Shown in pieces: positions 54,833-64,000 of a DNA stretch of 64,000 nt (the first letter of the stretch is position 1; the number at the start of each line of letters is the position of its first letter). Origin of the DNA: Hydrogenophaga taeniospiralis (GTDB lineage Bacteria > Pseudomonadota > Gammaproteobacteria > Burkholderiales > Burkholderiaceae_C). The DNA is taken from the NCBI RefSeq assembly GCF_020510445.1, contig NZ_JAHBAG010000001.1, forward strand, positions 3,820,501 to 3,884,500. Reading direction: 5' to 3'. The position numbers and the translations under genes are program-made. The notes beneath the pieces were generated by a model. The model was given only the letters and a program-made list of their open reading frames with translations. It did no database searches and was not told where the DNA came from.

Positions 54833-55873
54833 TCACGCAACCATGTGCGCGGGTGTGATCTCTTTCACCACATGGGCCTGCGCCATCGCCCAGACATCGC
54901 GCGCGGGCAAGGGTTTGAGGCGGTGGTCGCTCCACACCTGGCGCCACTTGCGGGCACCGTGCAGGCCGTGGCGCAGGCCCAACATGTGGCTGGCGATCGA
55001 ATACCAGGGCGCGCCGTCGTGCGCCGCAGCGCGTTCCATGTAGTCCACCATGGCCAACTCGACCGCTTCACGCGTCAAGGCCGGTCCGCGGGATGCCTGG
55101 CCGTAGAACCGGGCATCCCATTCGGTCATCACCCAGGGGTTGTGATAAGCCTCACGGCCGATCATCACGCCGTCGAGCTGTGTCAGGTGGCTGGCGATCT
55201 GTTCGTTGGTGGTAATGCCACCGTTGACTGCGATGGTCATGTGCGGAAAGTCACGCTTGAGCTGGTACACCAGCTCGTAGCGCAGCGGAGGGATCTCGCG
55301 GTTCTCTTTGGGCGACAGGCCCTGGAGCCAAGCGTTGCGCGCGTGCACGATGAAAACACGGCAACCCGCGTCGGCCACCGTGCCCACAAAATCACGAACG
55401 AAGTCGTAGCTTTCGATCCGGTCGATGCCGATGCGGTGTTTCACCGTCACGGGAATATCCACCGCGTCCACCATGGCCTTGACGCCGTCGGCCACCAGCG
55501 CCGCGTCGGCCATCAGGCAGGCGCCAAAGGCACCGCGCAACACACGCTCGCTGGGGCATCCGCAGTTGAGGTTGATCTCGTCGTAACCGCGCTCCTCCCC
55601 CAGCTTCGCGCACCGCGCCAGGTCGGCCGGCTCGCTGCCGCCCAGCTGCAGCGCCACCGGGTGCTCTTCTTCGTTGAAATCCAGATGCTGCGCCGCGTTG
55701 CCATGGATCAGCGCGCCGGTCGTCACCATTTCGGTGTACAGCAAGGTGTTGCGGGTCAGCAGCCGGTGAAAAAAACGGCAATGGCGATCCGTCCAGCCCA
55801 TCATCGGTGCCACCGATAAAAGCCATGGGCTAAGCTGTTGATTTAATTGAATTTTTTCCACTTGTATTTGCAC
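54833..55873 (-). CDS. dusA: tRNA-dihydrouridine synthase A, 5' end remodelled by an integrated element
   Basis: FMN enzyme reducing U20/U20a in tRNA. TIM-barrel signatures APMMGWTDRHCRFFHR, EMVTTGALIHG, NLNCGCPSERVLRGAFGACLM with catalytic Cys, VKHRIGID, VNGGITTNEQ and GREAYHNPW. 346 residues from a GTG at 55873 (another GTG at 55861). The first ~13 codons are AT-rich and unlike the rest of the gene; the native start appears replaced by sequence from the element whose integrase begins 100 bases away, so dusA is now expressed from an element-derived start. The family usually has Asp where this has Gly in APMMGW. Confidence 0.92.
   Translation of the reverse strand: MQIQVEKIQLNQQLSPWLLSVAPMMGWTDRHCRFFHRLLTRNTLLYTEMVTTGALIHGNAAQHLDFNEEEHPVALQLGGSEPADLARCAKLGEERGYDEINLNCGCPSERVLRGAFGACLMADAALVADGVKAMVDAVDIPVTVKHRIGIDRIESYDFVRDFVGTVADAGCRVFIVHARNAWLQGLSPKENREIPPLRYELVYQLKRDFPHMTIAVNGGITTNEQIASHLTQLDGVMIGREAYHNPWVMTEWDARFYGQASRGPALTREAVELAMVDYMERAAAHDGAPWYSIASHMLGLRHGLHGARKWRQVWSDHRLKPLPARDVWAMAQAHVVKEITPAHMVA
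55791..55835. other. probable attL of the dusA-integrated element
   Basis: The region encoding SVAPMMGWTD at the 5' end of dusA is the known target of DusA-type integrases. Here GC-rich dusA sequence changes to AT-rich DNA at about 55831, next to the integrase gene. The exact core cannot be set from one end; the matching attR should lie right of the window. Confidence 0.65.
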
Positions 55874-55975
55874 ACGTTTTGCTCATGTGCAGGCAGAAGT
55901 GCACACGAGGTGCACAGAAAGTGATTGATCGGTGTAGCATTGGTGCAGGACTGGACACACACAGAGTGCACACGA
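55869..55975. promoter_or_regulatory. TGCACACG repeats between attL and the integrase gene
   Basis: The octamer TGCACACG occurs three times in direct orientation at 55869-55876, 55900-55907 and 55967-55974; the last two extend to AGTGCACACGA. A related TGCACAG is at 55911-55917. Placement between the crossover region and the integrase start is what is expected of integrase arm-type or Xis sites, and the last copy abuts the int ATG, so binding could also repress int. Confidence 0.5.
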
Positions 55976-57064
55976 ATGGCGACATTTTCCCATCTACCGA
56001 GTGGCAAGTGGAGAGCGCAGGTAAGGCGCGCTGGCCTGTACCGTGCCGCCAGCTTCGCAACCAAGCGCGAGGCGAAGGACTGGGCCATGGCCGTGGAATC
56101 CCAGCTTACCCATGTGTCGGCCTCTGGGTTTGCACCTATCCCAAAGTCTGCCACCCTGGCCGACCTGATCGACAAGTACACAGAGAGTCAGCTACGCGAG
56201 TGCGGCAAGACCAAGACCGCCACCCTGGCGATGCTGCGCCGCGAGTTGGGCAATGTGAAGCTGGCCAGCCTCAACGCCGTGATACTGCGCGACTTCATTG
56301 ATCAGCGTCTTAAGGCTGGCGCTGGTGGGGTGACGATCTCGGCAGATATGAGCTATCTGTCTGCGGTGCTCAAGTGGGGCCGGCATGCCCGCAATCTGGA
56401 CATCCACGACACGCTGGCCATAGAGGCAAGGGCAAGCCTCAAGCATCGCGGTGTGGCGACACGTGCCCGTGAACGCGAGCGCGAGCCTACAGATCAAGAG
56501 CTAGAACGCCTGTATGCACACTGGCAAGGCAACGCCCGCCAGCGTATCGACATGCCATTGCTGTGCCGCTTTGCTCTGGCTACCGGCATGCGCCAGGGCG
56601 AGATAGCAAGGCTGCAGGTTGAGGATATTGACAGCGACCGGCACACCGTCGTCATCCGCGACCGCAAGGACCCCAAGAAGAAGGCCGGCAACGATCAGAC
56701 CGTTCCACTCTTGCCCGACGCCTGGGCCATTGTCGAGCCACTGATTCAGGACAGGACCGAGGGCAGTCTGTTCAACGTGCGTGCGGCATCGGTATCAACG
56801 GCATTCACACGGGCGTGTCAGGACGTAAAGCCTCCCATCCTGGACCTGACCTTCCACGACCTCAGGCACCGCGCTACGGCGCAGTTCTTCCGCATGGAGC
56901 TGGATATCCCCCGTGTAGCGCTGCTCACTGGTCACAAGACCTGGACCATGCTGCGCCGATACACGGATATCAAGCCCGAGGACGTGCACGCGGCGATCAG
57001 AAAACCGGCAAGCCCCGCGCCGGACTTTGCGGGGAAAAAAAGTCGGGATGGGTCGGCGCGCTAA
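55976..57064 (+). CDS. int: tyrosine recombinase/integrase (DusA-associated type)
   Basis: 362 residues from ATG 55976. Short N-terminal arm-binding region with MATFSHLPSGKWRAQVRRAG, SAM-like core-binding domain (about 60-160) and catalytic domain with Arg206 (TGMRQGEIARL), His294 and Arg297 (FHDLRHRA), His320 (LLTGHKTW) and Tyr329 (RRYTDI). All catalytic residues are present. Adjacent and divergent to the 5' end of dusA, the arrangement of DusA-associated integrases. An upstream in-frame start at 55925 is possible but would span the binding-site repeats. Confidence 0.95.
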   Translation: MATFSHLPSGKWRAQVRRAGLYRAASFATKREAKDWAMAVESQLTHVSASGFAPIPKSATLADLIDKYTESQLRECGKTKTATLAMLRRELGNVKLASLNAVILRDFIDQRLKAGAGGVTISADMSYLSAVLKWGRHARNLDIHDTLAIEARASLKHRGVATRAREREREPTDQELERLYAHWQGNARQRIDMPLLCRFALATGMRQGEIARLQVEDIDSDRHTVVIRDRKDPKKKAGNDQTVPLLPDAWAIVEPLIQDRTEGSLFNVRAASVSTAFTRACQDVKPPILDLTFHDLRHRATAQFFRMELDIPRVALLTGHKTWTMLRRYTDIKPEDVHAAIRKPASPAPDFAGKKSRDGSAR

Positions 57065-57106
57065 CGCCTTCCCACCCCTGGCCACTTTGAAAAGAGGACT
57101 TTCATC

Positions 57107-57352
57107 ATGGTTACCTTGGACGATAGCAGAACGGCGCTTGACTACGACGACCGTGTTTTACTGAAAGTGGGTCAACTGACAACCTTGTTGACCAGTGTCT
57201 CAGGCGATAGGTCGGGGTGCTTCCACGGCTTGCCCCGCGATCTGCAGGACTCGTTTCTCGGCCTGCTGCAGGAGCTTGCCGGCGATGCCATGGCCGCCAT
57301 GGAAGAGGCCGGCAGGCTGCGGCTTGCCGCGCGGGATCAGACGGCGCACTGA
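57107..57352 (+). CDS. small hypothetical protein of the element
   Basis: 81 residues, no recognised family. Mostly helical in appearance with an acidic start (MVTLDDSRTALDYDDRVLL) and an Ala/Leu-rich C-terminal helix (LLQELAGDAMAAMEEAGRLR). A GAGG lies nine bases before the ATG. Located between int and the next unknown gene, co-directional. Confidence 0.55.
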   Translation: MVTLDDSRTALDYDDRVLLKVGQLTTLLTSVSGDRSGCFHGLPRDLQDSFLGLLQELAGDAMAAMEEAGRLRLAARDQTAH

Positions 57353-57364
57353 ACCACACGCCGC

Positions 57365-57976
57365 ATGAAGAAGATCACCAGCCAGATCGTCAGCGACGGC
57401 ATCACCGACGTGGCGCGCATAAGCCTAAGTCCTGGCGCGACGGTGAATGATGCGTTCGCGCTTTTGAAGGCCGTTGCGCGACCCACGGAATCACTCGCCC
57501 AGGAGGTGGAGCGCAGGGCCGCCGAACTCGATAAGCAGGCGGTCGGCTTGGCGAAATACTTTCAGGTTGCCGTGCGCCAGTGCACAGATGAGGCGCGGCA
57601 CATGAGCGCATCGGGAGAGTACACGCCAGCACAGGTTCGTGGGCCACTGGAGAAGGCGGAGTGGTTGATCTATCAGGGCAGCGCGGCCCCACTGATGGCC
57701 AAGGCAAAGAAGTTCGAGCCCAAAGGGAGAGGGAAAGGACCCATCCGCAAGTTGATTGCGAAGCTGTTGAAGAAGAGCCCTTCCATGAAGAATCCGGCGC
57801 TATGGGATGCGGTCCAAGCCCATCCACCGCGTGGGTACTCCGTGAAGGACAACCACCTTGGGAAGTACATCGAGGGCCCAACCCCTAGCGACAAGACCAA
57901 GGAGCGCAATGACATGGATTACAGGCGCTTTTCAAACATCTGTTCAGAGGAGCGCAAGAGCCTGAAAGGCCCATGA
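57365..57976 (+). CDS. hypothetical protein of the element
   Basis: 203 residues, no recognised family. An N-terminal helical part (about 15-110, including SLAQEVERRAAELDKQAVGL) is followed by a basic linker (KKFEPKGRGKGPIRKLIAKLLKK) quoted here in part as KGRGKGPIRKL, and a C-terminal segment with many charged residues that might bind DNA. Begins 12 bases after the preceding gene and ends just before an inverted repeat. Confidence 0.6.
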   Translation: MKKITSQIVSDGITDVARISLSPGATVNDAFALLKAVARPTESLAQEVERRAAELDKQAVGLAKYFQVAVRQCTDEARHMSASGEYTPAQVRGPLEKAEWLIYQGSAAPLMAKAKKFEPKGRGKGPIRKLIAKLLKKSPSMKNPALWDAVQAHPPRGYSVKDNHLGKYIEGPTPSDKTKERNDMDYRRFSNICSEERKSLKGP

Positions 57977-57977
57977 T

Positions 57978-58003
57978 TTTCACCGGTTAGCGAACCGGTG
58001 AAA
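57978..58003. promoter_or_regulatory. perfect inverted repeat in the element
   Basis: TTTCACCGGTT and AACCGGTGAAA, 11-base arms with an AGCG loop, directly after the preceding stop codon. There is no immediate T-run (GCGTTTT follows after three bases), so it is either a weak terminator or an operator controlling the AlpA-replication gene set that starts at 58066. The remaining gap to 58065 is otherwise featureless. Confidence 0.5.
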
Positions 58004-58065
58004 GCGTTTTGCTTTGATCACGCCGTTGCAACTACCCCGACACATCGGGAGCAAAGGCGGGTCAG

Positions 58066-58323
58066 ATGAAGCGCATACAAAGTACAGAAGACGTCGAGCG
58101 GGTCAGGCAACTGGCCGACAGCCTCGACTGCCTGACCGATGAAGACTTACAACTGCTCGCGGACGCCACGCCGTGCACCACTGATGCGTGGAGAAAGCGG
58201 GGGCAAGGTCCGGTTTACATCCGCGTAGGAAACCGCGTGCTGTATCGGCGCCAGGACGTTGCCGAGTTCTTGAACGGTCGCGTTAAACAGCGTGCTGCGG
58301 CGCCGGCCAAGGAGCTGCTGTGA
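58066..58323 (+). CDS. AlpA/MerR-like helix-turn-helix protein
   Basis: 85 residues. The segment TPCTTDAWRKRGQGPVYIRV then GNRVLYRRQDVAEFLNGR is the pattern of excisionase/AlpA-type winged helix proteins (recognition helix, then a wing with R-x-x-YRR-D). Such proteins activate or excise integrated elements. It overlaps the next gene by four bases (TGTGA-type coupling). An activating or directionality role is inferred. Confidence 0.7.
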   Translation: MKRIQSTEDVERVRQLADSLDCLTDEDLQLLADATPCTTDAWRKRGQGPVYIRVGNRVLYRRQDVAEFLNGRVKQRAAAPAKELL

Positions 58324-58751
58324 ACGGCGCCCGACTTCTGCAGTTGGAATACCGACCGCACGCTGGCGCCTGGGCCAAGGTGGTGGACTCGCTGGCTTGT
58401 GATGGACCTACGCCGCCCAAAGGTATGGACCACCACACGCTGGTGATGCTTGGCGACCGCATGGAGTTGTACGGCTACACGCTGGCCCCGTATGCGGCTG
58501 GTGGCTGGATCGCCCGTGTCGGTGGCACTGAGACGGTCTGCCCGACCCTGGAGGCGCTGGAAACGTTCGTTGATGGTCTGGCCGCAGAGAGCGCTCTCGA
58601 AGCCCGCCGCAGGTACGCACGGGACCGGTACGCAAAGTCCCGAAAAAAACGGCCAGATGAGCGCACCGCCGAACTCAAGGGCGAGTTCATGGATGCCATG
58701 GCCCGGGCGCTGGCCGGGTTCACCGTCCGACAAGCAGGGGGCGCGTCATGA
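58320..58751 (+). CDS. hypothetical protein of the element
   Basis: 143 residues beginning at a GTG that overlaps the stop of the AlpA-like gene. The first half looks beta-rich (MELYGYTLAPYAAGGWIARV), the second half is a long basic helix (SALEARRRYARDRYAKSRKK). No family recognised. Overlaps the following gene by four bases, so it belongs to the same translationally coupled run. Confidence 0.6.
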   Translation: MNGARLLQLEYRPHAGAWAKVVDSLACDGPTPPKGMDHHTLVMLGDRMELYGYTLAPYAAGGWIARVGGTETVCPTLEALETFVDGLAAESALEARRRYARDRYAKSRKKRPDERTAELKGEFMDAMARALAGFTVRQAGGAS

Positions 58752-58942
58752 CCTCGCCGAACCTCACACCCGAAGAAGCGGCACGTTTCGCGGACCTGCA
58801 GCTAGCCCTGCAGCAGCGCGGGTTCCAGTTGCGCACGGTGTCGTGCGGCGGTTTCTTCGCCAGCCGAAAAGATGGGACTGCGTACCTCGCGCAGCTTGAC
58901 GACGTGGCGGATTTCGCCCGCCGCGTGGGGGCCGTCGAGTGA
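58748..58942 (+). CDS. small hypothetical protein of the element
   Basis: 64 residues, no recognised family. A helix-rich N-terminus (EEAARFADLQLALQQRGFQL) is followed by a strand-loop region (GGFFASRKDGTAYLAQLDD). Overlaps both neighbours by four bases, which is the main evidence that it is a gene. Confidence 0.55.
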   Translation: MTSPNLTPEEAARFADLQLALQQRGFQLRTVSCGGFFASRKDGTAYLAQLDDVADFARRVGAVE

Positions 58943-59787
58943 GCAACGTCGTGACGAATGCAGCCCGGAAATGGCACGGCTCGCCTGCGCAAAAGGCCGT
59001 ACTCATGGCCCTTGCCGATGGAGCCGCAGACGATGGTGTCGTTCCTGGGTGGCGATCATCAATCACCGCGCTTTGTGAGTGGACGTGCTTGGGGCGCACC
59101 GCCGTGATTCAGGCGATGAAGGCACTGGGGTCCAGTGGCCTGGTTGAAATTGATCGCTCATTCGGTCGGGTCAGCAAGATTCGAGTGTCGTTCACCGAAC
59201 TACCGAACCAGTCCGCCACGCGTACCAGTCCGGGAAACGAACCAGTACGGGAGACGGACCCCCACCAGTCCGGGAAACGGACCGGACCAGTACGGGAGAC
59301 GGACCGGACCAGTACGGGAAACGGACCCTTAACACCTATACATCAAACACCTGAAACATCAGAGGGAGAGCGCGCACGCGCGCAACCACCCATTGATCAA
59401 CCTTCGGTCGATGACTCCAAACAGCCCAAAGCCGGACAGCCGGATACCGCCGGCCAAAAGAAGACCAAGCCCAAAGCGGACTCGTTGTACTCGATGGCTT
59501 GCCCGGACGACGTTGATGCTCAGACCTGGGGTGACTGGTTGTTGCTTCGCAGGGCGAAGCGTGCGGCGGTCACGTCAACCGTTCTCAAGGGTGCGCGCGT
59601 TGAGGCTGAGAAAGCCGGCATGGCGCTGGACGCTTTCCTGCAGTGCTGGTGCCGGCGCGGATCGCAGGGTCTGGAGGCTTCATGGCTCAAGGACACCGAG
59701 CGCAACACCGTAAGCCGCGTGAGGACGACGCAGGACTTTTCAAAAACCGACTACACAGCGGGGCACGCCAATGGCCGAATCCTGTAA
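58939..59787 (+). CDS. phage O-like replication initiator with internal iterons
   Basis: 282 residues from a GTG. The N-terminal winged-helix region (WHGSPAQKAVLMALADGA, TCLGRTAVIQAMKALGSSGL) is typical of phage replication initiators; the middle (about 90-135) is a repetitive hydrophilic linker coded by tandem DNA repeats; the C-terminal part (LYSMACPDDVDAQTWGDWLL ... DAFLQCWCRRGSQGLEASW) resembles the DUF1376/O-type C-terminus that contacts the helicase loader. Next gene is a DnaC-like ATPase, the same order as lambda O and P. Confidence 0.75.
   Translation: MSNVVTNAARKWHGSPAQKAVLMALADGAADDGVVPGWRSSITALCEWTCLGRTAVIQAMKALGSSGLVEIDRSFGRVSKIRVSFTELPNQSATRTSPGNEPVRETDPHQSGKRTGPVRETDRTSTGNGPLTPIHQTPETSEGERARAQPPIDQPSVDDSKQPKAGQPDTAGQKKTKPKADSLYSMACPDDVDAQTWGDWLLLRRAKRAAVTSTVLKGARVEAEKAGMALDAFLQCWCRRGSQGLEASWLKDTERNTVSRVRTTQDFSKTDYTAGHANGRIL
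59224..59328. repeat. iteron array inside the O-like gene, putative replication origin
   Basis: Five direct copies of ACCAGTMCGGGARACG start at 59224, 59241, 59264, 59286 and 59308, with a sixth partial copy (ACCAGTCCG) at 59207. Spacing is 17, 23, 22 and 22 bases. An AT-richer stretch (59329-59365) follows directly and could be the unwinding element. This is the layout of the lambda origin: iterons within the initiator gene next to an A+T-rich segment. Confidence 0.75.
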
Positions 59788-60496
59788 AGCGGTTGTGTGC
59801 CCGACACACGGACCGTTTGAATCGAAGCATCTTCACGCTGACCGATGGAGCGGATGCCCAGCATGTGCGCATGAGGAATTGAAATACTTTGAAGCCCAGG
59901 CCCGTGAAGCTGAGAGGCGGGAGTTTTTTGATACCGGCATACGGGAAAGCGGCCTGCTGGGCAGGTTCCGTGATGCGTCGTTTGAGACATTCAACGCTGT
60001 CACAACCGAGCAGCGCAACGCGGCGGTGGAGTGCGCCGCATTCGCTGGTGGCGCAACCTTTGGCCGGTGGGAGACGCTGACCATGATCGGCCCGCCTGGC
60101 GTTGGCAAGACGCATCTTGGCGCCGCCATGGTGAGGCAGACCATCGTTGGCGGTAGCAGGGCGAAATACACGACGTGCCGCGATCTGATCCGCGCGCTGC
60201 GTGCCACGTGGCGCCGCGATTCCCCGCAGTCCGAAGACGACGTGATCAACGGATTCGCGTACACCGGCCTGTTGGTGGTTGATGAGGTCGGAACCGGGAT
60301 GGGAACCGAGGCCGAGGTTACCCAGTTGCTCGATGTACTCGACCGTCGGTATCAGGTCGGCGGCCCGACTGCGTTTGCCACGAACCTGCAACTCCCTGAG
60401 CTGCGCGGCGTGATCGGCGATAGAGCATTCGACCGGCTCAGGGAACGCAGCCGGCTGGTGCCCATGAACTGGCCCAGCCACCGAGGCTCCGCATGA
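59771..60496 (+). CDS. DnaC/lambda P-analogue AAA+ helicase loader
   Basis: 241 residues. An N-terminal CPTHG ... CPAC segment could bind zinc. The AAA+ core has Walker A GPPGVGKTHLGAAM at about 107, Walker B GLLVVDEVGTG, and a sensor-type FATNLQLPEL, followed by the DRLRERSRLVPM box typical of DnaC/IstB-like ATPases. It would load the host replicative helicase at the iteron origin in the preceding gene, whose end it overlaps by 17 bases. Confidence 0.88.
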   Translation: MAESCKAVVCPTHGPFESKHLHADRWSGCPACAHEELKYFEAQAREAERREFFDTGIRESGLLGRFRDASFETFNAVTTEQRNAAVECAAFAGGATFGRWETLTMIGPPGVGKTHLGAAMVRQTIVGGSRAKYTTCRDLIRALRATWRRDSPQSEDDVINGFAYTGLLVVDEVGTGMGTEAEVTQLLDVLDRRYQVGGPTAFATNLQLPELRGVIGDRAFDRLRERSRLVPMNWPSHRGSA

Positions 60497-60906
60497 CCGG
60501 CCTCCCGCTCGCCGAAGCCGCCCAGGCGCTGGACGTGAGCCCGGCCACGCTGCGCCGCTGGATTCGACGTGGCTGCCCGGTTCTATGCCGTGGCTCACGT
60601 GGTCGCGGGCACCAGATGCTGATCGACCCGGCCCAGGTGGCTGCGTGGCGCCAGGCTGGCGATGCAGATGCCATGGTCATGGAGTTGTCGGCCCAGGTCC
60701 CCGAGACGCTGGCCACCGCCATGCTGCAGGCCCTACAGCAGGCCCGGGACGTAAACAAAATCCGGCTGGCCAGCATCTTGTGTGGGGCTTGGTATTTGGG
60801 AGCCAGCGGCGTGCTTGATCTATTACGCGAGCGAAACCCAGACATCGGCGTAGAGCCATTGGAACCCGAATCAATCCGCCGGCTACGGAAAATCGCTGGA
60901 ATTTGA
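60493..60906 (+). CDS. Nu1/MerR-like DNA-binding protein
   Basis: 137 residues with an N-terminal winged helix (LPLAEAAQALDVSPATLRRW, then GCPVLCRGSRGRGHQMLIDP and AAWRQ) closely resembling the small terminase gpNu1 of lambda in layout, followed by helices (SAQVPETLATAMLQALQQAR). It could be a small terminase subunit or a transcriptional regulator. It overlaps the helicase-loader gene by four bases and precedes the capsid gene by 59. Confidence 0.6.
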   Translation: MTGLPLAEAAQALDVSPATLRRWIRRGCPVLCRGSRGRGHQMLIDPAQVAAWRQAGDADAMVMELSAQVPETLATAMLQALQQARDVNKIRLASILCGAWYLGASGVLDLLRERNPDIGVEPLEPESIRRLRKIAGI

Positions 60907-60965
60907 TCGATTTTAATCAATGCGAGTATCTTAAAAATTCCAACCACCCACCCGAAGGAAACATC

Positions 60966-61976
60966 ATGGATGATCTCGAATTTGCATACGCAGCCCGGGC
61001 ACAGAGCGCATTGGGTCTGTTGACCGGCCAAGACAACCGCGCCGGCCCCACGGCAAAGAAGGCCCAGGCTTTTGTCGAAATCGCGCGGACGATGATCACG
61101 CACAGGCAAAAGGAAACCGCGCTCAATGTGATGCGCAACAGTAACAACGAGCTGGTGAAAAAGTCCGTGGCCGAAACCATCGACGCCGATGGCGTGTTTG
61201 CTGGCGAACTGGCGCAACTGCTGGCGGCTTCATATATTCAATCCATCGCGCAATACAGCCTGCTGGACATGCTGATGAAATACGGGCGGACCATTCCAGC
61301 CGCTTTGCGCCAGGTGCTGATTGCATCCGACTCGACCGGCAATAGCGTCGCCGAGGGCGGCCCGAAACCGATCATCAACCTCGGCCTGAGTCTCGGCGAC
61401 GTGACGCCGATCAAATCCACGGCAATGGTCGTATTGAGCGATGAATTGGCTCGATTCACGGGACCAGAGGGAGAGGCACTGTTTGAGCGCGAATTGCGCC
61501 AGGCTGTTTTGCGCGCGGTAAATCAAGGTGTGTTGGATGCATTCAGCGATTCGGGTTCTTCAACTATCGCAGCCGGTTCTGATGCCCTGGCCAGCTTGCG
61601 CGCCGGCCTCGCTGCTGCTGGAGGCAGTGAGGGCTACATCGTCGCCATGGGCCAGGCGGATGCAACTTTCTTGACAACCCATGAAGCTAATCGCGGAATG
61701 GGTCCACGCGGTGGCGAATTCGCGCCAGGCGTTCACGTCGTGACCGTTGATGGATTGACCGGCCAACGTGTTTTCCCGGCTTCGCAATTCGCAATCTGGG
61801 ACAACGGCCTCACCGTCAAATCAAGCAACGAGGCATCGGTCGACCTGCGCGCCAGCCCATCGGCGCCTTACGAGCAGACCAGCCTTTTTCAAACCAATTG
61901 CACCGCGATTCTCGCCGAACGCAGTTGGAACATCGTCGCGCCCGCCAATTCCGTGATCTTTGTCGAGGGGGCATAA
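60966..61976 (+). CDS. HK97-fold phage major capsid protein
   Basis: 336 residues from ATG 60966 (AAGGA upstream). The N-terminal ~120 residues are helical (delta/scaffold-like), followed by the HK97 core: EGGPKPIINLGLSLGDVTPI, TAMVVLSDELARF, a spine-helix region, and a P-domain/C-terminal strand run ending AILAERSWNIVAPANSVIFV. No portal or prohead protease gene precedes it, which is unusual since these normally come before the capsid gene. The DNA is of similar GC to flanking element genes. Confidence 0.82.
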   Translation: MDDLEFAYAARAQSALGLLTGQDNRAGPTAKKAQAFVEIARTMITHRQKETALNVMRNSNNELVKKSVAETIDADGVFAGELAQLLAASYIQSIAQYSLLDMLMKYGRTIPAALRQVLIASDSTGNSVAEGGPKPIINLGLSLGDVTPIKSTAMVVLSDELARFTGPEGEALFERELRQAVLRAVNQGVLDAFSDSGSSTIAAGSDALASLRAGLAAAGGSEGYIVAMGQADATFLTTHEANRGMGPRGGEFAPGVHVVTVDGLTGQRVFPASQFAIWDNGLTVKSSNEASVDLRASPSAPYEQTSLFQTNCTAILAERSWNIVAPANSVIFVEGA

Positions 61977-61979
61977 GCC

Positions 61980-62495
61980 ATGGCGGGCATTGACAAACAA
62001 ACCCGAGCGGCGCTGCAGGCTGAAATTGACGACCCGGGCACCGACAGGCACCGAGCGATGATGTTGAAAAACATTCTCGCCCGTGAGCCAGAGGCCGACG
62101 ATGCAGATGACCAATCGCGCGAGAAGGAATTCAATCTAGAGCTTGCTGCACTCCGGCATAAGTTCGAGAAAAGCGGCGTCAAATGGACCGACCGAGCCAC
62201 CAATGGCTTTGTGCTGGCGATGAAGTTGATGATTGAGATTGAAGCTCAGAAAGCATTAACCAATCACCGCGACGGAATCCGGGCGTTGAAAAAACAGGTT
62301 GCGGAATTGAAAGAAGCCACCGGCCACACCGAGAAACATTACGTTAAATTCGGCGGCAATTTCGATTTGGAAAATCACTATTCCGAAAGCACGATTGTTT
62401 TATTCAAAGGCTTGGTATTCATCGCCGGACGGGATATCGCCGCCAACAAGGCCGACCCGCCAAGGCAGGGCAGCGGCTGGGTTCGTTTGTTTTAA
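61980..62495 (+). CDS. hypothetical phage protein with coiled coil and C-terminal module
   Basis: 171 residues starting four bases after the capsid stop. Residues 1-55 are polar; 60-120 look like a coiled coil (LMIEIEAQKALTNHRDGIRA ... LKKQVAELKEATGH); the C-terminus (STIVLFKGLVFIAGRDIAAN then GSGWVRLF) resembles small carbohydrate-binding-like modules found at the end of phage structural proteins. Probably a virion-associated or scaffold protein; not proven. Confidence 0.6.
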   Translation: MAGIDKQTRAALQAEIDDPGTDRHRAMMLKNILAREPEADDADDQSREKEFNLELAALRHKFEKSGVKWTDRATNGFVLAMKLMIEIEAQKALTNHRDGIRALKKQVAELKEATGHTEKHYVKFGGNFDLENHYSESTIVLFKGLVFIAGRDIAANKADPPRQGSGWVRLF

Positions 62496-62512
62496 CCACA
62501 CAGGAGAACGCA

Positions 62513-62722
62513 ATGGGTTTTGAAGTTGACCGCGAGTACATCCGCAGCAACCTGATCGGCCATGTGAGCGATTGGCTCAAAGAGGAAGTTGCAGCCGGCA
62601 AGCTCACGCAGCGTGAGGCAGATTCTGGCATGCGGCAATTCATGGCATCTGGAGCGTTGGAGAAGATGACCGATGACGACTGCGCAATGATCAATGCGTT
62701 TAAAAATGGTCAGGTGCACTGA
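62513..62722 (+). CDS. small hypothetical phage protein
   Basis: 69 residues, no recognised family. Helical (MGFEVDREYIRSNLIGHVSD, KLTQREADSGMRQFMASGAL), ending near a possible zinc-less polar tail. ATG 62513 follows a CAGGAG. Its stop is immediately before the next start (62724). Confidence 0.6.
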   Translation: MGFEVDREYIRSNLIGHVSDWLKEEVAAGKLTQREADSGMRQFMASGALEKMTDDDCAMINAFKNGQVH

Positions 62723-62723
62723 C

Positions 62724-62930
62724 ATGGCCGGCTACGCAGGGCGCCGCAGTGCGCGCGAGAACGATATTGGCCGCGTCATTGATCTGGCCAGGGTGCAGCG
62801 GATTTACGTCCACGAGAAGGCACCGGATTGGGTCGAACTGCAGGATACCCGGACAAAGACAACGCTATTTGAGGGCACGCCAACAGCAGCATGTCGATTC
62901 CTCAAGGGGCGTGATGGGGTCCAGCAATGA
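62724..62930 (+). CDS. small phage protein, first of a duplicated pair
   Basis: 68 residues. The segment VIDLARVQRIYVHEKAPDWV then ELQDTRTKTTLFEGTPTAAC matches the next gene product in order and spacing (VIQL..., VQLEDTRSHKIVFDG...), so the two appear to be tandem paralogues. No outside family was recognised. Overlaps the following gene by four bases. Confidence 0.6.
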   Translation: MAGYAGRRSARENDIGRVIDLARVQRIYVHEKAPDWVELQDTRTKTTLFEGTPTAACRFLKGRDGVQQ

Positions 62931-63184
62931 GCGCGCCTAAAGGAAGATGGAATCCCGAGGTCGCCAAGGTGATCCAACTATGCATTGGTAATTCGTTGTA
63001 TTGCCACAATGCCGGCCATCCCGAATCCGTGCAGCTGGAAGACACGCGCAGTCACAAAATCGTGTTCGATGGCACTTGCCGGGAGGCACGCGCATTCATC
63101 CGGGCACGGATAGCCGAGCAGGCCACCACACCCCCAAGCCCGAGGCAACCAAGCGGGCACCAGACAACCGAGGCCGCATCATGA
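62927..63184 (+). CDS. small phage protein, second of a duplicated pair
   Basis: 85 residues. Its core (KVIQLCIGNSLYCHNAGHPE, VQLEDTRSHKIVFDGTCREA) is a diverged copy of the upstream gene. A Pro/Ser/Thr-rich tail follows. It overlaps the HNH gene start by four bases. Function unknown. Confidence 0.6.
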   Translation: MSAPKGRWNPEVAKVIQLCIGNSLYCHNAGHPESVQLEDTRSHKIVFDGTCREARAFIRARIAEQATTPPSPRQPSGHQTTEAAS

Positions 63185-63402
63185 TCGACTTGGACAACCC
63201 AGACCCGCCGAGCTTCTATAAGAGCGCCGTTTGTGAGCGCGACCGATGGACTTGCCAGGTGTGCGGAGTGGCTACACCAAAGTCTGCCAACTGGACCAAC
63301 GAACCGAACGCACCAGAGATCGGGCACAAGGTTCCACTGCACGAGGGTGGGCTGCACGCCTACGAGAACTTCCAGTGTGTCTGCCGTAGCTGCAACGTGT
63401 AG
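63181..63402 (+). CDS. HNH endonuclease-like protein, short
   Basis: 73 residues. CQVCGV, EIGHKVPLHEGGLHAYENFQ and a terminal CVCRSCNV form the HNH/zinc pattern (CxxC ... H ... N ... CxxC). It stops straight after the final CxxCNV; full-length relatives usually continue with a few basic residues (CNxRKG-type). HNH proteins next to a small terminase are known helpers of DNA packaging in HK97-like phages, matching the small-terminase-like gene that follows. Confidence 0.7.
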   Translation: MIDLDNPDPPSFYKSAVCERDRWTCQVCGVATPKSANWTNEPNAPEIGHKVPLHEGGLHAYENFQCVCRSCNV

Positions 63403-63552
63403 ATCGACGCAGGAGACGCGCGGGTGCATCGAAGCCACACGACCATCACCCCGCCAGATAAACCCCCGGGGGGCCGATCACGGGCCACGGACACGCACCC
63501 AGGACACCGCCGTCCAAGTCTTCCATCGCTAACCCGTAACAAAAGGCCCACC

Positions 63553-63984
63553 ATGCCACGACAATCCGCCGCCAGCCTGAGCGTGGCCACCCCCTCACTC
63601 GGGGCGCGCCCACCGCCACCCCGTGAGCTTAGCGACCGACAAAAGGCCCTGTGGTTGCAGTACACCGCATGCAAGCCGGTCGGCTGGTTTACAGATGAAA
63701 GCCTGCCCCTGTTGGTCGCCCTGGTTGCACACGTCGAGGGCTTCGAGGTGCTCGAACGGGAGTTTCGCGCCGTCACCGATCTGGCCGACATTGATAAGTT
63801 GAAGTGGTACGACCAGTTGGCCAAGCTGCGTCAAAGGGAATCGGCGGCCATCGCCAGCCTGAGCACCAAGCTGCGGCTCACACCCCAAAGCCGGTACACG
63901 CCACAGAGCGCAGCCACAGCATCACAAAGGCGGCCGGGCTCAGCACCATGGGAAACCAAGGGCACCACCCGCAGGACCGGCTAA
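63553..63984 (+). CDS. small terminase subunit-like protein
   Basis: 143 residues from ATG 63553; the frame also extends upstream to 63424, but that part is Pro/Arg rich and lacks a good start. The helical centre (LSDRQKALWLQYTACKPVGW, LPLLVALVAHVEGFEVLERE) and the tail with low complexity resemble P27-type small terminases. Together with the HNH gene it marks the start of a packaging module that continues beyond the window. Family assignment is tentative. Confidence 0.6.
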   Translation: MPRQSAASLSVATPSLGARPPPPRELSDRQKALWLQYTACKPVGWFTDESLPLLVALVAHVEGFEVLEREFRAVTDLADIDKLKWYDQLAKLRQRESAAIASLSTKLRLTPQSRYTPQSAATASQRRPGSAPWETKGTTRRTG

Positions 63985-64000
63985 GGCCACATACCCAGGG

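Follow-up and report, generated by a model that had tools for sequence, protein, structure and literature searches.

E1, an element integrated in the dusA gene of Hydrogenophaga taeniospiralis (contig NZ_JAHBAG010000001.1), is most probably, as judged from its sequence, a helper-dependent phage satellite that would work like a Gram-negative phage-inducible island (PICI) with a capsid gene. An initial annotation had hesitated between a satellite and a compact prophage; the former is favored because the right attachment site follows after 9.2 kb and the interval yielded no gene for TerL, portal, tail or lysis. Coordinates are given on the scale of the window, the whole 64,000-nucleotide stretch of DNA analyzed.

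Boundaries and insertion site of E1

E1 measures 9,168 bp from attL core to attR core. The attL core, CCCATCAT (55797..55804), lies within the host dusA ORF (54833..55873, minus strand); the first codons of that ORF, as far as the att core, now come from E1. The part of the element in the window (55797..64000, plus strand) continues to the attR core at 64965-64972 (L002:10965-10972), placing the right end 972 bases beyond the window edge. An exact 14-mer search found no attR, which was located by a 20-mer search with mismatches; from the core onward, 16 of 20 bases match between the two ends. The minus strand at attR still encodes the former dusA start, LSVAPMMG, and in a relative of the same genus (L125) the dusA site is empty, with both flanks joined at the att core. 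The dusA gene is a common prophage integration site. It was present in all 16 genomes searched, including the own genome, the matches in G1152 being weak only. The host genes beyond attR were identified by visual inspection as phaB, phaA and phaC. Three exact copies of TGCACACG (55869..55974, plus strand) between attL and the integrase gene are possible arm-type sites of the integrase; a fourth copy occurs in E1 at 63726.

Gene content of E1

All named E1 genes lie on the plus strand with the integrase gene at the left end, as in Gram-negative PICIs. The tyrosine integrase (55976..57064; phrog_1, E = 4e-56; PF00589, E = 4e-20) closely resembles the integrase of the element at dusA in G1175 (680 bits, 82% identity, dN 0.14, dS 1.08). 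It is followed by a small protein, o2 (57107..57352), which lacks a PHROG match and is retained in the sister element E2 (phmmer E = 1e-18 to L035), and by o3 (57365..57976), also without a PHROG match. An AlpA- or MerR-type regulator, another feature of Gram-negative PICIs, is present as an AlpA-like helix-turn-helix (HTH) protein (58066..58323), although its match is weak (phrog_66, E = 5e-4; PF12728 below cut-off); its homologue in E3 gave E = 4e-28. The small ORFs o5 and o6 (58320..58942) have relatives in E2 and E3, respectively.

A lambda-like, O-like replication initiator (58939..59787; phrog_678, E = 7e-18) contains an iteron array (59204..59327, plus strand) with 17- to 23-bp steps and the full units ACCAGTMCGGGARACGRACC. 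Three scans recovered it, as six copies of 23 nt, as 3.9 copies of 22 nt (score 130) and as four full matches. In lambda, the origin iterons lie inside the O gene, and the E1 array is probably the replication origin. A DnaC-like helicase loader follows (59771..60496; phrog_50, E = 9e-52; PF01695, E = 4e-17). The pri-rep module of Gram-negative PICIs, with an iteron origin 3′ of pri-rep, is absent from E1, which has instead the O-like and DnaC-like genes, with iterons inside the former. Immediately 5′ of the major capsid protein (MCP) gene lies a Nu1/MerR-like HTH gene (60493..60906; phrog_57, terminase small subunit, E = 3e-8); in Pfam its product matched PF12728 above the cut-off and Nu1 (PF07471, E = 0.006), PF00376 and PF13411 below it. 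Its homologue adjoins the MCP gene in E2, E5, E6 and E7, and was unmatched in E3 and E4.

Downstream of the MCP gene, o11 (61980..62495) was read by eye as a coiled coil with a small C-terminal domain and has a homologue in E2 (E = 4e-33); the o11-like domain of E3 matches phrog_1289 (E = 2e-13) and the ORF next after the portal gene in phage cousins. The small ORFs o12, o13 and o14 (62513..63184) have relatives in E2. They are followed by an HNH endonuclease (63181..63402; PF01844, E = 8e-7; HNH PHROGs, best E = 2e-10) and by the small terminase TerS (63553..63984; phrog_12559, E = 3e-18; no Pfam match), which shares 31% identity with its counterpart in phage PAJU2 (tblastn E = 9e-13). Beyond the window edge, after TerS, o17 (L002:10106-10393) is a second TerS-like small protein with a weak match (phrog_641, E = 0.02); its relative in E4 (E = 6e-7) matches a TerS family, phrog_18735 (E = 6e-21). 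The integrase, AlpA-like, O/P-like replication, capsid, HNH and TerS-like genes that the initial annotation had read on one strand were thus all recovered.

The capsid protein

The MCP (60966..61976, plus strand; 336 aa) is assigned to the HK97 fold (phrog_10, major head, E = 3e-7). With tblastn, the protein had no match at E 1e-5 in 50,697 phage records, and Pfam gave none at E up to 0.1. Support beyond PHROGs comes from a profile made from the protease-MCP of PAJU2 type together with its cousins, which matched with E = 3e-11, and from the protein's own-family profile, which among PDB chains matched the major capsid protein of Bxb1 (E = 1e-8). The best Foldseek matches of its AlphaFold2 model (pLDDT 75.5) were HK97-fold shells, among them the Bxb1 capsid (E = 3e-9), with low TM-scores (0.40 and 0.44), and encapsulins made up much of the list. 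In the model, the parts of an HK97 subunit and an N-terminal helical region are retained. Third-position bias was evident in the gene (dN/dS 0.36/1.39 for E1/E2 and 0.083/0.63 for E6/E7). Neither the E1 capsid as lone query nor the Hydrogenophaga-type alignment A3 found a match among viral contigs. The two protein searches made with the capsid scored the best 8000 candidates. Alignment A4 yielded 121 relatives, of which 80 were retained: 79 distant cousins (L043-L121, 25-33% identity), which served as phage-like controls, and L042, on the same contig as L012. Later capsid alignments omitted P0024 (middle unalignable) and P0003 (a fragment identical to the query).

A tree was built from a sample of the cousins (16 of 79) and of the database homologues (18 of 37, presumed to be satellite proteins), with PAJU2 represented by its fused protein from residue 301 onward. 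Six of the seven element MCPs fell in one clade (support 100/100) apart from the phage-like cousins, the branch on the clade's side of the drawn root measuring 1.18 changes per column; the E3 MCP is a long branch whose placement is unsure. The MCPs of E4 and P0025 grouped with phages, and capsid genes were therefore captured at least twice on this tree.

Genes not found in E1

Just three E1 frames reach 300 aa: those of the MCP and the integrase, and one antisense shadow. Neither TerL nor portal was detected by profiles that were positive in 64 and 70, respectively, of the 79 cousin loci, and no frame is long enough for either. The protease-MCP profile matched the MCP alone, and no PHROG protease matched. 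Connector profiles found no match in the seven elements, a result to be read with the many cousins they missed (adaptor found in 45/79, closure in 29/79) and with the small unassigned ORFs of E1. In line with the initial annotation, none of the 17 ORFs up to attR was recognized as a repressor, lysis or tail gene; eight of these lack a PHROG match (E up to 0.1) and could hide a further function.

The observation that no portal or protease gene precedes the capsid gene also stood, and none follows it. In PAJU2 the order is TerS, TerL, protease-MCP, two small genes, portal, and since the capsid gene normally comes before the portal in this MCP lineage, the lack of a portal ahead of it is ordinary; the real oddity of E1 is the absence of portal and TerL. 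For a satellite, extension to attR had been expected to reveal a 10-18 kb element with terminase, portal and protease genes and without tail or lysis genes. The attR and TerS were found and tail and lysis genes were not, but the element is 9.2 kb long and TerL, portal and protease were not found. In the own genome, the profiles phrog_12 (portal), PF03354 (TerL) and phrog_2 (which we take to be TerL) had no match, indicating no resident helper of these types.

Related elements

Six further loci (from Hydrogenophaga, Xanthomonas, Luteimonas and IMG/VR) share a related plan, so E1 is not a lone wreck. The four in which both att sites were found span 8.4-11.9 kb. With the cousin-validated profiles, TerL was found in none of the seven elements, portal in two and protease in two relatives (E4 and E5). 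E2 (9,480 bp) lies at tRNA-Lys, and its integrase is unmatched by that of E1. Its gene run comprises the Nu1-like HTH, MCP, o11 and small genes, then TerS and HNH, the last two being in the order HNH, TerS in E1. Its replication gene has no PHROG match, and its AlpA-like gene matched an excisionase only, weakly (E = 0.002). E3 (10,016 bp, dusA) and E5 (8,379 bp, tRNA-Ala) carry an MCP gene too, and TerL and portal were not found in them. No PHROG matched the E3 MCP at E 0.01, and its identification comes from two profiles, that of the family (E = 1e-74) and the PAJU2-type one (E = 7e-8); the AlpA-like gene of E5 has no PHROG match. Primase/helicase-type genes occur in E3, E4 and E5. No att repeat was found for E4; about 16 kb is a guess at its size, and the above range does not cover this element. 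The family is not uniform, since E6 and E7 carry portal and tail-assembly genes; E7, whose left end is a contig end, also has a neck1-like gene, and a tape-measure gene is also among the relatives' genes. None of 10 short IMG/VR contigs had terminal repeats marking circular contigs.

An order-level search matched five genomes beyond the own (best E = 1e-9), and a family-level search 15 beyond the own and G961; every match of the latter search was partial, the best having E = 1e-19. Among 28 loci from these searches and the E4 locus, the same profiles detected TerL in six and portal in 11; 26 of the 28 are short pieces (2.9 to 3.8 kb), in which absence is uninformative. In L037 (14 kb), both were unmatched. 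L036 (16 kb) was discarded as a satellite candidate: it is an ordinary prophage with TerL and portal beside the capsid gene, on which the profiles thus also work. The E4 match (E = 2e-17) is no stronger than some of the others, so further E4-like elements may exist among them.

Mode of life and alternative explanations

The att cores, the empty site, the shared plan of E2, E3 and E5, the MCP clade and the PAJU2-related TerS all point to a satellite. The packaging motor, portal, tail and lysis functions would most likely be borrowed from a helper, as none was found in E1. A helper of the PAJU2/HK97 cos type (we take PAJU2 to be a cos phage) would enter or be induced, and the AlpA-like factor would turn E1 on. 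E1 would then excise and start replication at the iteron array inside the O-like gene, its DnaC-like protein loading host DnaB. Its TerS and HNH would pass E1 DNA to the helper TerL, its MCP would join in a head, probably small, on the helper portal with a helper tail, and the helper would lyse the cell. Counting against this reading are the weak AlpA and o17 matches, the eight ORFs without a PHROG match, a replication set unlike the primase type of PICIs, and the portal and tail-assembly genes of E6 and E7.

Within the satellite reading, the MCP could be either a shell builder or a modifier of the helper's shell. The capsid gene of the PICI EcCICFT073 is dispensable for transfer of that element (available part of PMC6092414), so the role of the E1 MCP may be small. 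There is an appreciable chance, short of even, that the protein co-assembles with the helper capsid protein and alters head size, in the manner of SaPIbov5 Ccm, a satellite-encoded MCP homologue located at pentamers (PMC8569155, in part). That no portal or protease gene was found in E1 and that MCP-gene-bearing PICIs are known (PMC10111431, in part) fit such a role; the HK97-subunit parts and N-terminal helical region predicted by the model, the portal in two relatives and the protease in two speak against it. The long branch separating the protein from helper-type MCPs also disfavors tight co-assembly, but this distance is no proof, because Ccm and the corresponding helper protein share just 23% identity (PMC6893505, in part). 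More speculatively, E1 may belong to an "own shell, borrowed vertex" satellite lineage of Burkholderiales and Xanthomonadales, a type not met in the literature searched. Its MCP would form a whole small capsid around the helper portal and motor, proteins of two long-separated lineages fitting at one vertex; members would exchange individual virion genes (protease, portal, neck, tail-assembly, tape measure), and some might set the length of a helper-made tail and the head size.

A decaying prophage that has lost portal, TerL and tail genes is improbable. The descent of MCP and TerS from a PAJU2-like phage lineage and the failure of three profiles to find a resident helper would suit it; both att cores are kept, however, the frames are open, MCP and integrase genes show third-position bias, and the same small set in sister E2 at a different site argues strongly against decay. 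HK97 shells include encapsulins, frequent in the Foldseek list, yet a small, tailless virus able to act alone, or a compartment of encapsulin type, is very unlikely, as TerS and HNH tie E1 to tailed-phage packaging and the relatives' portal, tail-assembly and tape-measure genes make the same tie. The initial suggestion of a capsid-forming island was not supported in its published sense, which comprises the element's own MCP, protease, portal, connectors, TerL, TerS and HNH (available text of PMC10690885). E1 has the MCP, TerS and HNH of this set and no tail genes were found, but TerL, portal, protease and connectors were not found either, making a strict capsid-forming PICI extremely unlikely.

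Significance and comparison with known systems

Satellites are described, in the excerpts available, as using the helper's head (classical PICIs, P4) or making a whole head (capsid-forming PICIs), and a lone capsid gene is also known from PICIs. The E1 family, outside the hosts named in the 2018 paper on Gram-negative PICIs, holds graded sets of head and tail genes, its relatives combining different virus parts. Such sets would make it possible to test which parts of the virion a satellite has to encode itself, which can come from a helper, and whether a foreign portal can serve as the base for a shell. An MCP invisible to Pfam and to tblastn among phage records also illustrates how such elements escape notice.

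The published descriptions compared here were available in part. Gram-negative PICIs (EcCICFT073, PmCI172; PMC6092414) resemble E1 in their integrase, alpA/merR-type regulator, own replication and single gene direction, in an MCP gene in most reference elements and terS in some, and in their small size (10-20 kb; PMC10111431). E1 differs in its lambda-like O and DnaC-like loader in place of pri-rep (E3, E4 and E5 being of primase type), in the dusA site, in an MCP of the PAJU2/HK97 lineage, and in the family's hosts, Burkholderiales and Xanthomonadales as against Enterobacteriaceae and Pasteurellaceae (PMC6092414). Capsid-forming PICIs share with E1 a satellite-coded MCP, TerS and HNH, and also have MCP clades apart from phages (PMC11389934); they differ in TerL, portal, protease and connectors, none of which was found in E1. 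SaPIbov5 Ccm is likewise an MCP homologue in a cos-type satellite (PMC8569155), whereas E1 has its own TerS and HNH, and a Ccm-like action of its MCP is putative. The Vibrio satellite-plasmid PISP TG93 (PMC13230959) is an 11-kb element with a capsid protein, TerS and a MerR-like regulator; its protease recalls E4 and E5, and portal and TerL are unnamed in the available text. Unlike E1, it is a plasmid without integrase, and its capsid belongs to PF03864. Phage PAJU2 (NC_011373) has a TerS homologue and the same MCP lineage, with the portal after the MCP, but is a 46.9-kb phage with TerL, portal and connectors. MCP-bearing PICIs have already been published, and the E1 type is a variant of these, not a separate kind.

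Boundaries and gene content of the dusA element

Because the element integrated at dusA (E1) extends over the right edge of the window, the adjoining stretch to the right was examined (L002; window position = L002 position + 54000). The window itself corresponds to G000:C1:3820501-3884500 of a 5.28-Mb source genome, which comprises 3 contigs and is 100% complete according to its record. At attL, dusA reads LSVAPMMGW on the minus strand, and LSVAPMMG, the former start of dusA, occurs a second time at L002:10965. The rightward extension to a second dusA core proposed in the initial annotation thus reached attR, giving a core-to-core length of 9,168 bp and a full gene list. In G1154, a genome of the same genus, the region upstream of dusA matched the sequence to the right of E1 (79.8% over 193 columns), the dusA gene matched the dusA side of E1 (85.6% over 209 columns), and both flanks joined at ATGATGGG; this locus (L125) is an empty dusA site. 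The host genes to the right of E1 were assigned by eye as phaB, phaA and phaC. Near attR, past the window edge but on the window scale, GTTTATGCGGGTTCC is found three times, twice in direct orientation (with 2 mismatches and 1 mismatch, respectively) and once as a perfect inverted copy, at 64413-64427, 64507-64521 and 64932-64946, and CGGTTTTGATAC forms an inverted pair at 64434 and 64531. Both repeats are possible candidates for integrase, excisionase or packaging sites.

E1 contains 17 ORFs, all on the plus strand, in the order int, o2, o3, AlpA-like, o5, o6, O-like, DnaC-like and Nu1/MerR-like HTH, followed by the major capsid protein (MCP), o11, o12, o13, o14, HNH, TerS and a second TerS-like protein. 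Since only the MCP and integrase frames exceed 300 aa, an antisense shadow aside, a hidden TerL or portal is impossible in E1 (505 and 464 aa, respectively, in phage PAJU2, NC_011373). An iteron array lies within the O-like gene, and the lambda origin likewise sits inside gene O. The Nu1/MerR-like HTH had 137 relatives; in 25 of the 120 listed, the longest contig measured 7 to 11 kb, close to the element size, and this protein may be a better family marker than the MCP.

Identity and distribution of the capsid protein

The capsid assignment was tested further because the PHROG match of the E1 MCP was modest (E 3e-7) and a Pfam match was absent. When the PAJU2 protease-MCP and its cousins from IMG/VR were combined into a profile, this profile detected the E1 MCP (E 3e-11); another profile, of 27 family members, detected the Bxb1 MCP in PDB (E 1e-8). 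In the structure predicted by AlphaFold2 (23 sequences, pLDDT 75.5, pTM 0.71), helices and strands follow the order expected for an HK97 MCP, and Foldseek ranked phage capsids at the top and encapsulins next. Because the TM-scores for the top match were low (0.40 and 0.44), the predicted model establishes the HK97 fold but not its details. The two profile matches and the structural comparison together bear out the capsid gene claimed in the initial annotation.

MCP homologues were rare: a collection of 5.8 billion proteins, searched twice, yielded at least 25 homologues in one search and at least 30 in the other, as counted among the best 8000 candidates of each. The comparison with phage records that the initial annotation had called for, run by tblastn, matched none of 50,697 records, and six plasmid records matched at 23-24% identity. 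The MCP was present in 3 of 67 genomes of the genus, counting the source genome. Strong matches were obtained in 2 of 399 genomes of the family (the source genome and G961), along with 15 weak ones; in the order, 6 of 399 genomes matched, strongly in the source genome only, and in the class the source genome alone matched (1 of 369). Scans of genomes and viral contigs added Xanthomonas hortorum, Luteimonas wenzhouensis and one IMG/VR contig.

Related elements

Six related MCP-bearing elements (E2-E7) were placed beside E1. E2 (G961, tRNA-Lys; 9,480 bp between 51-bp repeats) carries an integrase, which the E1 integrase does not match, o2, an o5-like gene, Nu1-like HTH, MCP, o11, o12, o13, TerS (phrog_83) and HNH. 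E3 (G1175, dusA; 10,016 bp) carries a twin of the E1 integrase, AlpA-like, primase-like and helicase-like genes, MCP, an o11-like domain and a repressor-like HTH; neither TerS nor HNH was recognised in it. E4 lies in the same genome near tRNA-Leu, with no ends found, and encodes primase-type proteins, AlpA-like HTH, MCP, protease, o11-like protein, HNH, TerS and tape measure. G1175 thus holds two distinct MCP-bearing elements (L040, L041), which have in common a small protein starting MATLKSIPATPADLA. E5 (Luteimonas, tRNA-Ala; 8,379 bp between 15-bp repeats) encodes integrase, primase, helicase, Nu1-like HTH, MCP, a protease ending in an o11-type domain, and TerS. E6 (Xanthomonas, tRNA-Val; 11,945 bp between 48-bp repeats) encodes integrase, Nu1-like HTH, MCP, a portal split into two frames with other sequence in between (L010:11270-13938), a tail-assembly protein and a tape measure. 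E7 (IMG/VR contig L012, tRNA-Val; left end cut) encodes integrase, an O-like protein, Nu1-like HTH, MCP, an intact portal, and tail-assembly and neck proteins. The tape-measure-like genes of E6 (L010:14522-16771; phrog_2854, E 3e-94) and E4 (L041:4186-6324; phrog_1538, E 4e-23) would, if they set tail length, represent an unusual activity for a satellite.

Between element copies, third positions differ most often. For MCP, dN and dS were 0.083 and 0.63 between E6 and E7, and 0.36 and 1.39 between E1 and E2; for the integrases of E1 and E3 they were 0.14 and 1.08, dS values above 1 being rough. In an MCP tree of 42 rows, E1, E2, E3, E5, E6, E7 and 17 database proteins formed a single 100/100 branch, within which the position of E3, a long branch, is unsure; E4 and one database homologue (P0025) grouped with phages.

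Terminase and portal genes

Distant phage-like MCP loci (79 cousins; L043-L121, 25-33% identity) served as controls, and profiles for virion genes were made from PAJU2 genes and cousin loci. TerL was detected in 64 of the 79 cousins versus none of the seven elements, and portal in 70 of 79 versus two of seven (E6 and E7); many of the cousin sequences are short contigs or fragments, which may account for missed TerL or portal genes. Among the elements, protease was detected in E4 and E5 only. Three IMG/VR cousins (L060, L064 and L105) yielded neither TerL nor portal by profile; a Luteimonas-type TerS follows the MCP in L064, and an integrase-like ORF lies upstream in L060 and L105. These three may be satellites, possibly of further lineages. 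In another family of the order, a locus with a weak capsid match (L037, G100:C53:1-14000) had neither TerL nor portal within 14 kb.

Proposed mode of action and comparison with known systems

HK97-type cos packaging uses TerS together with HNH. Because E1 encodes this set and its TerS resembles that of PAJU2 (31% identity), the natural reading of the sequence is that TerS with HNH would redirect the TerL of a helper. The role of the MCP is the most doubtful step of this mechanism. The helper would have to arrive from outside, because the source genome contained no match to portal phrog_12, phrog_2 or PF03354.

The kind of element is already known from published systems. A capsid gene is frequent in Gram-negative PICIs (21 of 29 reference elements; PMC10111431); it is dispensable in EcCICFT073, and PmCI172, which has an MCP homologue, makes small heads (PMC6092414). 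SaPIbov5 Ccm is an MCP homologue located at pentamers (PMC8569155), capsid-forming PICIs carry a full set of their own head and packaging genes (PMC10690885), and a Vibrio satellite-plasmid carries capsid, protease, TerS and a MerR-like gene (PMC13230959). No report of the E1-E7 lineage was found in a search of titles and abstract openings that covered few subscription journals. The E1 family differs from the published satellites in the replication set of E1, in its hosts, in its MCP lineage and in its graded complement of virion genes.
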